A stretch of 64,000 nucleotides of DNA from positions 1,240,001 through 1,304,000 of the forward strand of contig NZ_AP024235.1 of the NCBI RefSeq assembly GCF_016756315.1, given 5' to 3'. The position numbers and the translations under genes were made by a program. Source of the DNA: Alteromonas sp. KC3 (GTDB taxonomy: Bacteria; Pseudomonadota; Gammaproteobacteria; Enterobacterales; Alteromonadaceae). This document shows positions 9,054 to 18,484 of this stretch, in pieces (the first letter of the stretch is position 1; every line of letters starts with the position of its first letter). The notes beneath the pieces were generated by a model, which had not been told where the DNA came from, did no database searches, and was given only the letters and a program-made list of their open reading frames with translations.

Positions 9054-10859
9054 TTACGCTCCAATAATCAGATTGCGCCCTTTGTCTTTTGCACGATAAA
9101 GGGCGCTGTCTGCACGCCTAAAGGTATCTACAATATTTTCTGCATTACTGCAGTGTGCCCAGCCAATACTTACGCCTACATGCTTACCTTCAACGTCATT
9201 TATCACAAGGGAGTTAATTGTTTTGTGGACTTTTTGAAGCTGCGATAAGAAGTGCTCATGCTCTTGGGTAGCGTTTTCAGCAGTTTGCGAAACCGGTGCT
9301 TTTCCTTGTGACGGGTGTTTAGGCTCAGCCGTAGGCTTATCAATACGTTGCACTATGGCAAATTCTTCGCCGCCATATCGGCCAGCAATTTGATTGTCAT
9401 TGTTCAAAGGGGCCAATGTTTTAGCAACGGCCTTCAGCACAATGTCGCCCGTCTCGTGACCATAGGTATCGTTAATATTTTTAAAATGATCTAGGTCGAG
9501 CAGGGCAATGAATAACTCAGTGGCGTTTTCGTTGTCTGAAGCAAAGCTTTCATCGACGAAAAAGTCGATACTTCTTCGGTTAGGTAGGCCGGTCAGCGCA
9601 TCGTAAGAGGCAAGTTTAGCCAATACGTCATTTGTTTTTTCTAACTCGAGTGTTCGCTGTTTGACTAACTGTTCTAGTTTTGCCGCTTGTTGCGCTTTGG
9701 TTTGAGCTGCCACTTTTTGCGCGTCTCTTTCTCTTTGTACAACGTTAACCATATAGCGCGTGGTAAGGGCGACAATGAACAAACACGTTAGCACAACCCC
9801 AGACATAAAGGTGGCTACAGGGTCTAACTGTATGTCCACATCAAATAAAGCCACAATGATAAGGAAAAAGGTGCTGAGTGTTACCGGAAACATAGCGCAA
9901 GCCAGCCATTTTGCGCGGTCAGAGCCCCGACGATGCTCGACAGTAATAACGATTACAGCGACAACGATAAACAAAAAGAAAAGTAAAACGGGAAGTCTTA
10001 GTGCCAAGTCGAGTCCGACGGTTTGCCATACGATAATGCCAATTATGGGGAGCGAGAAGCAGAATTGCTTTACCCATGTTGAACCGAAAACGTGGTGTCC
10101 TTCTCTCGCTAAGCTGGCAAATACCACCCAAAATGAAGAAAGCAAAACGGCATAAATACTTATCGCGTAACTAATATCATTCAAACTTGGATATTGCGGC
10201 CATAACAATTCAAAGGCGTATCCAAACACGCGAAAAAACCAAAACGTCGTTGCAAAAATAAAGGTCGCAAAGCTCAAAAAAACAAGATTTCGGCTAGCGA
10301 CAAACCCTAACAGGCACAACACGGTAAGTAATGCCATAGCACCAAAAAATGCCATATCCCGCTGAATAGTATTCACATACATATTGGTAAAATATTCAGG
10401 CGTGCCTACAACAAAAGAATAGCGTAGGATTTCTCCTGCCATATACCCTTGTATCTTAGCGGTTTCCATCTCGTTGAGTAAGATTGGAAAGTGATAGTTT
10501 GAAACGTGAATTTCTCTGGATGTAAAAGGGTAAGCGTCACCTGTCTTCCATACCTTCTCACCACTTTGTACTACCAATGTTTTCATTGCTGGAAAACCAA
10601 TACTGAACCATACGGGAATGGCGTCTTTTGTGGTGTTTTTGATGTTGACGCGAAAATGCAGGTATTGATGTGCTTGTCTATCAAGCGATGAGGCATCTTT
10701 TACCCAATGAAGATCGTCTGAAGAGGGAGAGTCGCTTAGTGCAAACTCCATATGGTCATTTAATGGAAGGGAAGTATTAACTGGATTGAAATTGACTGCG
10801 GCTGCCGCGCTTTTGCAAAAGAGCAATAGCGTAATAAGCAAAAACCAACTTCTTGTCAT
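9054..10859 (-). CDS. Membrane diguanylate cyclase with 7TMR-DISM sensor
   Basis: Makes cyclic di-GMP from GTP in response to an extracytoplasmic signal. It has a signal peptide (residues 1-20), a periplasmic 7TMR-DISM extracellular domain (about 25-170), seven predicted membrane helices (about 180-375), a coiled-coil linker (about 385-425) and a GGDEF domain. The active motif GGEEF is near residue 495. The RxxD product-inhibition site is absent; the corresponding residues are N/D/N/Q. The central domain contains an insertion rich in Glu, Lys and Pro after GGEEF. It converges with the reductase operon. Confidence 0.92.
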   Translation of the reverse strand: MTRSWFLLITLLLFCKSAAAAVNFNPVNTSLPLNDHMEFALSDSPSSDDLHWVKDASSLDRQAHQYLHFRVNIKNTTKDAIPVWFSIGFPAMKTLVVQSGEKVWKTGDAYPFTSREIHVSNYHFPILLNEMETAKIQGYMAGEILRYSFVVGTPEYFTNMYVNTIQRDMAFFGAMALLTVLCLLGFVASRNLVFLSFATFIFATTFWFFRVFGYAFELLWPQYPSLNDISYAISIYAVLLSSFWVVFASLAREGHHVFGSTWVKQFCFSLPIIGIIVWQTVGLDLALRLPVLLFFLFIVVAVIVITVEHRRGSDRAKWLACAMFPVTLSTFFLIIVALFDVDIQLDPVATFMSGVVLTCLFIVALTTRYMVNVVQRERDAQKVAAQTKAQQAAKLEQLVKQRTLELEKTNDVLAKLASYDALTGLPNRRSIDFFVDESFASDNENATELFIALLDLDHFKNINDTYGHETGDIVLKAVAKTLAPLNNDNQIAGRYGGEEFAIVQRIDKPTAEPKHPSQGKAPVSQTAENATQEHEHFLSQLQKVHKTINSLVINDVEGKHVGVSIGWAHCSNAENIVDTFRRADSALYRAKDKGRNLIIGA

Positions 10860-15355: not shown

Positions 15356-15427
15356 TACTGGTAATTACGCAAAAAACGCGTAGGGTAGAAATCTACCTTG
15401 CGCGTTATATGCGGAGCTACCAAAGCC

Positions 15428-16966
15428 ATGGAAGAAAATGATAACGTAAAGCAAAACATGCTTTTAGCGCTTAACGCGCGTATCCACCAAACATCTGACG
15501 ACGGCCGTCAACATCATATCGAAAAGCGAAAACGTAAAGGTTTTAACAGCGCTAGAGAAAACCTGGCTTTGCTTTGTGACACGCAAACATTTCAAGAATA
15601 CGGGCAATTCGCCGTTGCTGCACAAAGGCAGCGCAAAGACTATGAAAAGCTGAAGTCTGATACCGCCGCCGACGGCGTTATTACGGGCATCGGTCATGTA
15701 AATGCAGGGGCTTTTCCCACTGGACAAACCGCAACGGCATTGGTGATAAACGATTATAGCGTGCTTGCGGGTACGCAGGGGTATTTTCACCACTTAAAAT
15801 TAGACAGAATGATAGACGTTGCCAAACAACGAAACCTACCTGTCATCATGTTTACCGAAGGTGGGGGAGGAAGGCCTGGCGATACTGATATTACTACCGT
15901 TAATTCGGGGCTTCAGTGCCAGTCGTTCTCAAATTGGGCATCGCTATCGGGTGTTGTGCCTAGAATAGCGGTAAATAACGGCTATTGCTTTGCAGGCAAC
16001 GCGGCGCTTTTTGGCTCTGCAGATATCACTATTGCCACTTCATCGTCGAGTATTGGTATGGCTGGTCCCGCCATGATTGAAGGCGGTGGACTCGGTGTGT
16101 TTTCACCAGAACAAATTGGCCCTATTGAAACCCAAGCCCAAAACGGTGTTGTCGATATTGTCGTTAATGACGAAAACCATGCCATTGATATTGCTAAGTT
16201 TTGTTTATCCTTCTTTCAGGGTGATGTTGAGCACTGGCAAGCATCATCGCAAGAGAACATTTTTTCGTTGTTACCAAATGATCGTCGTTTTGCTTATGAC
16301 GTTCGACAGATCATTAATACCTTGGTGGACACCAACAGTTTTATTGAACTAAAAGCACAATACGGTGGCGCAATTATTACTGGTTTTTGTCGCTTTAAAG
16401 GTAAAGCGGTGGGCATGATTGCGAGTAACTGCAAAGTGTTAGGCGGGGCAATAGATGTTGATGCCGCCGAGAAATGCGCTGACTTTCTTGCGCTTTGCCA
16501 GCGTTTTTCGCTGCCCGTCGCAAGTCTATGTGACACGCCTGGATTTATGGTAGGGCCTGAGCACGAAAAGCTGGGGGCAGTGCGACGCCTGAATCGTATG
16601 TTCTCAGTTGGGGCTAGTCTAAATGTGCCTTTTATCGCCGTTGTCTTAAGGAAGTGCTACGGGCTTGGGGCGCAAGCCATGTTAGGAGGCAGCACGTCAA
16701 AGCCTGATTATACGGTGTCTTGGCCAAGCGGTGAATTCGGAGCAATGGGCCTTGAAGGCGCAGTAAAGCTTGGATTTAAGGCTGAACTAGAGCAAATATC
16801 TGACGATGAAGAACGACATGCACGTTTTGACACCTTATTGAAACAGGCCTACGCAAAAGGGCAGGCGAGTGAAGTCGCGTCAGTATTAGAAATAGATGCC
16901 GTTATCGACCCAGTCAAAACACGAGACATTATTGCTGACTTTTTCGCATCGCAAACTGTTAAGTAA
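15428..16966 (+). CDS. Acyl-CoA carboxyltransferase (PccB-like), orphan
   Basis: Carboxyltransferase subunit of the biotin-dependent acyl-CoA carboxylase type, with two crotonase-like halves. The N-terminal half contains TEGGGGRPGD and the acyl-CoA loop SSSIGMAGPAMIEGGGLG. The C-terminal half contains GVASLCDTPGFMVGPEHEK-like and LRKCYGLGAQAMLGG segments, as in propionyl- or methylcrotonyl-CoA carboxylase beta chains. About 512 aa. No biotin carboxylase or biotin carrier gene lies nearby, so its partner must be elsewhere or it acts differently. ATG 15428 was preferred to the TTG at 15398; GGAG lies 12 bases upstream. Confidence 0.8.
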   Translation: MEENDNVKQNMLLALNARIHQTSDDGRQHHIEKRKRKGFNSARENLALLCDTQTFQEYGQFAVAAQRQRKDYEKLKSDTAADGVITGIGHVNAGAFPTGQTATALVINDYSVLAGTQGYFHHLKLDRMIDVAKQRNLPVIMFTEGGGGRPGDTDITTVNSGLQCQSFSNWASLSGVVPRIAVNNGYCFAGNAALFGSADITIATSSSSIGMAGPAMIEGGGLGVFSPEQIGPIETQAQNGVVDIVVNDENHAIDIAKFCLSFFQGDVEHWQASSQENIFSLLPNDRRFAYDVRQIINTLVDTNSFIELKAQYGGAIITGFCRFKGKAVGMIASNCKVLGGAIDVDAAEKCADFLALCQRFSLPVASLCDTPGFMVGPEHEKLGAVRRLNRMFSVGASLNVPFIAVVLRKCYGLGAQAMLGGSTSKPDYTVSWPSGEFGAMGLEGAVKLGFKAELEQISDDEERHARFDTLLKQAYAKGQASEVASVLEIDAVIDPVKTRDIIADFFASQTVK

Positions 16967-17131
16967 AATGATTCCAAAAAAGGTTCTCCACTTTTTTTCT
17001 ATCGATCGCATTCAGCCAAACAAAATACATGCTTTTTAATTGGCTGAAATACCGTTATGTGACTAATCTAAAATAAAAAACTTTAGACTTTAAACTTTCG
17101 TAGTACCTGATTCGATAGAACGGAGGCTTTG

Positions 17132-18109
17132 ATGTTCGACAGACTATTTGACGGTAGTCTAATGCCACATGGTCATTGCTTACTTTGGCGGTGGGATTTG
17201 TTGTTTCTGCATCTCGGTGGCGATTTGATGACAGTTGTCGCATATTCAGTAATCCCCCTTGGTATTTTCTATTTCCTATATAAACGAAAAGACATCAAAT
17301 TTGATGGTTTAGCAGCCTTATTCGCTTGCTTTATCGCATTTTGTGGCTTGTCGCATTTAGCTGGTATCGTCAATATCTGGAATGGCTACTATTTTATAGA
17401 AGGAGCAATTAAGTTCGCTACGGGTTTGGTATCAATAGTAACGGCCTACTATTTGTGGAAACTGATGCCCGTTTTTATCAACATACCAAGCATTACTATG
17501 TTGAAAGAGCGTAATAAAGCGTTAGAAGAACTTAAAGCACAGCTAGAAGAAGCTAACCACTCTCTTGAAGAAAAGGTAAAAGAGAGAACATTAGAATTGG
17601 AACAGCAAGCTAACACTGACGCAGTGACCGGTGTTGCCAGTCGCTTTTGTATTATGGAAACGCTTAATCACAACTGTGGGCTTTTCGAACGGTACGGCCG
17701 TCCTTTTTCAATTCTGATGATAGACGTAGACCACTTTAAGGATGTAAACGATACCCATGGCCACCAAGCAGGTGATGAGGTGCTATCGCTAATGGCAGAA
17801 TGTATTTCAAATAATATCCGCTCAGTTGACGCCATTGGCCGTTATGGCGGTGAAGAGTTTCTAGTTATATTGCCAGAAACGCCACAGAACATCGCTATCG
17901 ATCTCGCTGAGCGCATACGAACAGGTGTTGAAAAACTGTCTTTGCCCTTTGAAATAGAAGTCACCTGTAGTGTTGGCGTGTCGACTATGACACAAGGTTT
18001 GTCAGATGATGGTTTAGTAAGCCAAGCAGATCACGCCTTATACACAGCTAAACGTTCAGGCCGAAATCAGGTTGTTGTATTCGAGGAAAGTATGTCTGAA
18101 AGCCCTTAG
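17132..18109 (+). CDS. Diguanylate cyclase with ethylene-receptor-like membrane domain
   Basis: Residues 20-110 form three hydrophobic helices resembling the ethylene-binding domain of plant ETR1 and bacterial Etr1 proteins. Asp31, Tyr38, Ile41, Pro42, Ile68, Cys71 and His75 correspond to the seven ETR1 residues known to be essential for copper-dependent ethylene binding, all at a constant offset of six. A coiled coil (about 128-160) leads to a GGDEF domain with active-site GGEEF at 239-243 and an intact RSVD inhibition site at 230-233. The ATG follows an excellent CGGAGG site. It is a single-gene unit. The cyclic di-GMP output is secure; the ligand is inference. Confidence 0.9.
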   Translation: MFDRLFDGSLMPHGHCLLWRWDLLFLHLGGDLMTVVAYSVIPLGIFYFLYKRKDIKFDGLAALFACFIAFCGLSHLAGIVNIWNGYYFIEGAIKFATGLVSIVTAYYLWKLMPVFINIPSITMLKERNKALEELKAQLEEANHSLEEKVKERTLELEQQANTDAVTGVASRFCIMETLNHNCGLFERYGRPFSILMIDVDHFKDVNDTHGHQAGDEVLSLMAECISNNIRSVDAIGRYGGEEFLVILPETPQNIAIDLAERIRTGVEKLSLPFEIEVTCSVGVSTMTQGLSDDGLVSQADHALYTAKRSGRNQVVVFEESMSESP

Positions 18110-18127: not shown

Positions 18128-18484
18128 CTACTCTTCTCGATTATCAGATTTTCGTTTTAGCATCTCTTCGATAATGGCCACTTTTTTCCTATCTGATTCT
18201 ATGCGATTTAGGAAGAAGTCTTTTTTTGCAAACAGTGCGCTTTCAAGGTTTGGGCAAAGTTTACCTAGCTCAATAAGGGTTCTATATCCCGCTTGAATTT
18301 CTGATAACGAGAAACCAATTGCTTTGCCATTGCTCACAAATGAAAGCTGTTTAACATGCAGCTCCGTGTAGATTCTATATCCATTGTCGCTGCGTTTAGG
18401 TGCAGTGATAATGCCCTCTTTTTCATAAAATCTTATGGTATCTCTTGATAGTCCGGTGCGTTTTTCGAGTGTTGAAATATTCAT
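18128..18484 (-). CDS. MerR-family transcriptional regulator
   Basis: Small MerR-type activator of 118 aa. The N-terminal winged helix reads ISTLEKRTGLSRDTIRFYEKEGII, then GYRIY, with a C-terminal dimerisation coiled coil at about 75-115. The single Cys (near residue 77) is not part of a clear metal motif, so an organic or redox signal is more likely than a metal. It is divergent from the metallo-hydrolase gene, and the 61-base gap holds a promoter with a MerR-style long spacer. Confidence 0.88.
   Translation of the reverse strand: MNISTLEKRTGLSRDTIRFYEKEGIITAPKRSDNGYRIYTELHVKQLSFVSNGKAIGFSLSEIQAGYRTLIELGKLCPNLESALFAKKDFFLNRIESDRKKVAIIEEMLKRKSDNREE

Follow-up and report, generated by a model that had tools for sequence, protein, structure and literature searches.

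We analyzed a 64,000-nucleotide stretch of Alteromonas sp. KC3 (contig NZ_AP024235.1, positions 1,240,001 to 1,304,000 of the forward strand; hereafter the window), taken from a host genome of 4.56 Mb assembled as one contig (G000). Within it lies a gene predicted to encode a protein (P0001) in which an ethylene-receptor-type membrane sensor is joined to a diguanylate cyclase, the enzyme class that makes cyclic diguanosine monophosphate (cyclic di-GMP). The reading frame is uninterrupted from the ATG at 17132 to the stop codon ending at 18109. Its features are given below, where counts out of 58 refer to an alignment of the window protein with 57 fused proteins, thinned from 120 among the matches listed.

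17122..17126, + strand: GGAGG, Shine-Dalgarno-like, with the ATG 5 nucleotides further on (sequence reading)
17132..18109, + strand: ethylene-sensor/diguanylate cyclase fusion gene, 325 amino acids (open reading frame, translation, Pfam, protein matches)
17165..17179, + strand: PHGHC motif, residues 12-16, ahead of helix 1 (PHGxC is typical of bacterial sensors)
17192..17482, + strand: predicted three-helix membrane sensor, residues 21-117, with ETR1_N at 23-117 (Pfam, structure models)
17222..17224, + strand: Asp31, equivalent to ETR1 D25 (position and BLASTP alignment; kept in 57/58)
17342..17344, + strand: Cys71, equivalent to ETR1 C65, expected copper(I) (Cu(I)) ligand (alignment; 58/58)
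17354..17356, + strand: His75, equivalent to ETR1 H69, expected Cu(I) ligand (alignment; 58/58)
17411..17413, + strand: Lys94, equivalent to ETR1 K91, expected helix 3 partner of the aspartate (58/58; role of K91 from PMC11819568)
17492..17608, + strand: helical linker, residues 121-159, a single predicted helix (structure models, alignment)
17609..18070, + strand: GGDEF diguanylate cyclase domain, residues 160-313 (Pfam)
17819..17830, + strand: RSVD, residues 230-233, product-inhibition site motif (R and D invariant, 58/58)
17846..17860, + strand: GGEEF, residues 239-243, active-site motif (invariant, 58/58)

Pfam recovered ETR1_N (PF25487) at residues 23-117 with 101.1 bits against a cut-off of 27 (E 4.3e-29), bearing out the original prediction of an ethylene-receptor-like sensor, and GGDEF at residues 160-313 with 149 bits. 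No further family in the protein scored above cut-off, and by the same cut-offs the HisKA/HATPase output of SynEtr1 and AzoEtr1 is absent. The profile search of the host genome returned a single ETR1_N match, the fusion gene itself, together with 61 GGDEF matches in about 60 frames, and the ETR1_N profile matched none of 14 control genomes. Among the matches listed, the closest is a protein of Alteromonas sp. McT4-15 (97%).

All seven residues on which the original prediction was built (D31, Y38, I41, P42, I68, C71 and H75) are found in the translation at the places it gave. Four of them, Y38, I41, P42 and I68, answer to ETR1 Y32, I35, P36 and I62, which we take to be the remaining ethylene-binding residues of ETR1. 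D25, C65, H69 and K91 are named, along with a mention of 'seven amino acids', in PMC11819568. The claim of a constant, gap-free offset of six from ETR1 held from D31/D25 to L76/L70 in a BLASTP alignment against the ETR1 N-terminus (26% identity, E 6e-10). It does not extend over the whole domain: a gap lies directly ahead of D31, and the loop between helices 2 and 3 is three residues shorter than in ETR1, so that K94 pairs with K91 at offset 3. In ETR1 this lysine pairs with D25 (PMC11819568; unnumbered in PMC13012798).

Across the 58 aligned fused proteins, I41, P42, I68, C71, H75 and K94 are invariant, and D31 and Y38 differ in one row alone (P0064, with E and F, respectively), each of the eight being at least 98% conserved. 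Equal conservation is reached by 38 of 116 sensor positions; the probability that all seven binding residues would fall among these by chance is 2.7e-4, a rough figure because the alignment rows are kin. A second set, 86 distinct sensors (22 of them fused) from genomes gathered by Pfam-model searches, retained the ETR1-type residues as follows: D, 84; Y, 81; I35, 77; P, 75; I62, 77; C, 84; H, 84; and K, 82. Departures were restricted to non-fused proteins. In three of these (L041, L042 and L063) the sensor has decayed, with multiple sites lost together, and such joint loss was seen in none of the 22 fused proteins. Cys16 of the PHGxC motif, retained in 83 of the 86, could belong to a second metal site or a dimer site. 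As a side observation, the Alteromonas kinases at L063:7508-11218 (+ strand, genome G050) and L042 (G051) carry F or L in place of ETR1 C65 besides their other losses, and the L063 kinase nonetheless adjoins a gene for a receiver-GGDEF protein.

Structure models placed the three helices at residues 21-51, 58-84 and 87-117 (mean predicted local distance difference test score 85.0). In these models D31, C71, H75 and K94 sit at a common membrane depth. To judge by depth alone, the separation of Cys71 and His75 from Asp31 that would have told against the original prediction did not appear, and the strong profile match disposes of the other computational refutation that it named. The spacing from P119 to D163, which spans the linker, is identical in 56 of the 58 aligned proteins. 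In the cyclase domain, RSVD is followed by five residues and then GGEEF, which is the RxxD spacing of diguanylate cyclases, and R230, D233, G239-F243 and D198, presumably a metal ligand of the cyclase, are unchanged in all 58. The GG(D/E)EF motif, the metal aspartate and RxxD are all present and, as the original prediction had it, the cyclase motifs are intact.

The fusion is not unique but belongs to a widespread clade, and the rarity implied by the original prediction was overstated; in 2023 a table note already counted GGDEF and EAL as domains of ethylene receptors (PMC10088873). Among the best 80 of 565 loci, which make up our named set, 36 proteins have the sensor-GGDEF architecture and one more is sensor-PAS-GGDEF. 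In a tree built on 113 columns, with many open forks, 35 short fused proteins formed a single gammaproteobacterial clade (support 100/96), separate fusions appeared in Methylovorus and in Methylomonas, and three label changes were counted. Sampling of the window's family, the Alteromonadaceae, yielded ETR1_N matches in 61 of 246 genomes at 68 places, 13 of which have frames of 322-357 amino acids; GGDEF was confirmed in 10 of these, the other three not having been fetched. Within Alteromonas, 25 of 59 genomes have a match, the host included: 14 of the fused type (13 fetched plus the host), seven histidine kinases, three low-scoring long frames, one of which falls under the ETR1_N cut-off, and one fragment at a contig end. 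Each of the 25 has one match and none has both forms, a candidate case of mutual exclusion that we rejected, about 1.7 co-occurrences being expected (14 x 7 / 59), which is not significant. A search of four clade genomes for the AMO/pMMO family gave no match, but the control genomes gave none either, so the result is uninformative. Two fused-type loci (L106 and L107) are from Haliea, a genus that includes ethylene-assimilating members (PMC4036023).

The output of these sensors was approached through relatives that lack a cyclase domain. For the family sample, 51 of the 55 non-fused places were examined, and a receiver-GGDEF gene lay within 2.5 kb of the sensor gene in 43, with 45 such genes in 250 kb near sensors vs 4 in 309 kb farther off. 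At these 43 loci the nearest receiver-GGDEF gene was downstream on the same strand in 33, upstream on the same strand in four, convergent in four and divergent in two. All seven kinase loci of the genus set likewise have one within 2.5 kb (five divergent and two downstream, with a Pfam check on four), and it is found downstream on the same strand in 12 of 19 gammaproteobacterial loci of the named set. As a control, HATPase domains of the host genome lay near receiver-GGDEF in 1/65 cases within 2.5 kb, 2/65 within 5 kb and 3/65 within 6 kb, these distances being domain-to-domain, as against gene edge-to-gene edge for the sensors, and the six receiver-GGDEF frames of the control being assigned through equal frame length. 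Because the loci share ancestry, the wiring counts do not represent independent events. Five genomes (L203:5275-5823, + strand; L204, L205, L206 and L207) encode free-standing ETR1_N proteins of 182-184 amino acids that lack any output domain. Their genes are flanked by histidine kinase genes within a conserved signalling cluster, and in four of the five a receiver-GGDEF gene is also close by. The cyclase-type protein of the L203 cluster, the sole one checked with Pfam, is REC-GGDEF-EAL, so that the output there could also be cyclic di-GMP breakdown. The residue equivalent to ETR1 P36 is T in three of these five sensors.

Cyclic di-GMP looks like the usual output for an ethylene sensor in the window's family. 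The proposal that it is the output of the fusion is strengthened because most cyclase-less sensors of the family adjoin receiver-GGDEF genes. Overall, the observation behind the original prediction is confirmed and its interpretation partly supported.

Taken together, the fusion is probably a one-component, Cu(I)-dependent receptor that senses ethylene or some comparable small ligand and adjusts the activity of its own cyclase. The receptor would be membrane-bound and probably dimeric, its three helices forming a pocket of the ethylene-receptor type in which Cys71 and His75 would hold Cu(I). On binding to the copper, ethylene (or a small molecule closely resembling it) would shift helix 3, Asp31 with Lys94 coupling binding to that helix, and the shift would be passed along the fixed-length linker helix, residues 121-161, by coiled-coil transmission to alter the way in which two GGEEF domains meet. 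The changed pairing would change cyclic di-GMP output, which the RxxD site would limit through product inhibition. The direct basis of this scheme is the sequence, its domains and conservation, the predicted helices and the family wiring; copper, ethylene, the dimer and coiled-coil transmission we infer from knowledge of the family. The host genome holds one copper-ATPase match, above cut-off, and this pump could supply copper to the sensor. In plants, ethylene works against receptor output, and for this reason our guess as to sign is that ethylene would lower cyclase activity. The same may apply to SynEtr1, whose signalling a review proposes to be inhibited by ethylene (PMC5812497).

A broader proposal, which we put forward tentatively and at slightly below even confidence, is that the ethylene domain is a dedicated cyclic di-GMP input throughout the window's family, under three wirings (cyclase fusion, histidine kinase next to a receiver-GGDEF gene, free-standing sensor among kinases). 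Dissolved ethylene, given off by algae and by organic matter in sunlight, would then act as a general marine signal for attachment or dispersal. Ethylene does occur in coastal waters, though dilute, at a reported 17-951 pmol/L, and is produced there by algae and through photochemistry (PMC4036023); contact with algae, to which the original prediction tied the fusion, is a setting that we infer.

Several points weigh against these readings. Overall identity to ETR1 is just 26%, and the gene is one among some 60 GGDEF frames of the host genome. Occurrence within Alteromonas is patchy, fewer than half of the 59 genomes having ETR1_N and only the 14 having the fused type, and neighbouring genes are conserved solely within sub-groups, none of those examined suggesting ethylene or copper. 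A receiver-GGDEF gene is lacking nearby at eight of the 51 family loci, was found near none of 14 sensors outside the family (14 of the 25 places in the phylum sample were fetched, some stretches stopping at contig ends) and was downstream on the same strand at none of the 21 alphaproteobacterial loci of the named set. AzoEtr1 comes from the Alphaproteobacteria, the class where this wiring was not seen. Binding, copper or enzyme data for members of the clade were not found in the open-access PMC papers searched.

Among other explanations, it is unlikely, though the strongest of the competing accounts, that the Cu(I)-binding domain senses copper itself or the redox state, occupancy of Cys71 and His75, with the outer HxxC motif, setting the cyclase while ethylene binding is adventitious. 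The invariance of both ligands and the retention of PHGxC, which could bind metal, would suit such a sensor, as would the MerR-type gene next downstream, the MerR family including metal regulators. CueR has a pair of cysteines, whereas the window's MerR-type protein has one and finds no match at L052, and the five window neighbours that were profile-searched, the rest not having been searched, include no copper gene. The non-metal sites Y38, I41, P42, I68 and K94 are, moreover, conserved as strictly as the metal ligands, and ETR1, with a dissociation constant for Cu(I) near 1e-15 M (PMC6586836), binds the metal so tightly that reversible gauging of copper would hardly be feasible. A slightly fainter chance is that the Cu(I) pocket serves a different small molecule (propylene, acetylene, isoprene, carbon monoxide or a sulphur volatile, for example). 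Marine bacteria are likely to encounter many volatiles, and the literature searched yielded no gas tests on the fused clade; against this, the full set of seven ethylene-binding positions of ETR1 is retained, just as it is in AzoEtr1, for which ethylene binding has been shown (PMC11819568).

That the sensor is a mere membrane anchor or dimeriser for a constitutively active cyclase we regard as very improbable. No neighbour is common to all Alteromonas fused loci and there is therefore no evident partner pathway, as an anchor would allow, but an anchor would be expected neither to keep the polar D31, H75 and K94 in membrane helices nor to be more conserved than the enzyme that it carries. The joint decay of sites, confined to the non-fused L041, L042 and L063, points the same way.

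The receptor reading places the fusion beside known ethylene sensors. SynEtr1 (UirS, Slr1212) and AzoEtr1 carry at the N-terminus a three-helix ethylene-binding domain in which the seven residues of the fusion recur (PMC6682694, PMC11819568, PMC5812497). Ethylene binding and an effect on motility or biofilm have been shown for these two receptors (PMC6682694, PMC11819568), and AzoEtr1 likewise has a helix 3 lysine, K98. Their output runs through histidine kinases and response regulators, whereas the fusion has its own cyclase and no kinase. Receptors of the plant ETR1 family have the seven binding residues, the aspartate-lysine pair and the N-terminal position of the domain in common with the fusion, which differs in lacking GAF and kinase domains and in carrying PHGxC, as bacterial sensors do, where plant receptors have an N-terminal cysteine pair. 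The Idiomarina phytochrome-activated cyclase (5llw/5llx) and WspR are other sensor-linker-GGDEF proteins, with light or phosphorylation as input rather than a membrane ethylene-receptor domain. The histidine kinases with adjacent receiver-GGDEF genes (L058-L064 and most of L218-L256) have the same sensor type and messenger but a two-component wiring over two or more genes, unlike the one-piece fusion.

The fused architecture is already annotated in databases, record P0095 being named Ethylene response sensor, and a diguanylate-cyclase gene is described beside one ethylene receptor gene of Geitlerinema (PMC6682694). Within the excerpts of open-access PMC papers that were searched, subscription reviews being outside this scope, there was no report of a tested ethylene sensor-cyclase fusion or of a family-wide link between ethylene sensors and cyclic di-GMP; no solved structure of an ethylene-binding domain was found. 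The novelty lies in the family wiring to cyclic di-GMP and not in the fusion itself. Were the fusion to bind ethylene, a single polypeptide would couple a plant hormone gas directly to the chief messenger of bacterial lifestyle, with no phosphorelay in between, which would offer a possible reason for the retention of the receptor in marine bacteria. Perception would then be easily measured (gas in, cyclic di-GMP out), which makes the fusion worth testing, and work on the ethylene-binding domain would gain a compact experimental system. Ethylene may also set attachment or dispersal in related bacteria, and the family wiring yields a clear genetic prediction.

Three further genes of the window were noted near the fusion gene:

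9054-10859, - strand: 7TMR-DISM sensor with GGDEF, the second cyclase gene of the window, about 6 kb upstream (profile search)
15398-16966, + strand: carboxyltransferase directly upstream of the fusion gene (close copy search)
18128-18484, - strand: short MerR-type regulator, convergent, 18 bp past the sensor gene (partial MerR-DNA-bind match, under cut-off)

Only one of the 13 other Alteromonas fused loci, L052, has upstream genes in common with the window, and the MerR-type protein has no counterpart there. Close copies (at least 73%) of the upstream carboxyltransferase, which is accessory, occur in 4 of the 59 Alteromonas genomes, host included, and in genome G049 the block of argS, FMN reductase and carboxyltransferase is present with a different gene in the place of the sensor. 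Pairs among L045, L048, L050, L051, L055 and L057 have at least 10 neighbour frames in common; for L046 and L053 the number is 10 between the two and 3 towards that group; L047, L049 and L056 have 4 to 7 in common; and L054 has none. The fused gene thus occupies several sites, each stable inside a sub-group. In one sub-group, a conserved series of genes comes after the fused gene, at L055:10186-13199 (- strand) and again at L045, L048, L050, L051 and L057 (partly seen in L045 and L050); judged by eye, the beginnings of these genes resemble those for N-acetylglucosamine use.
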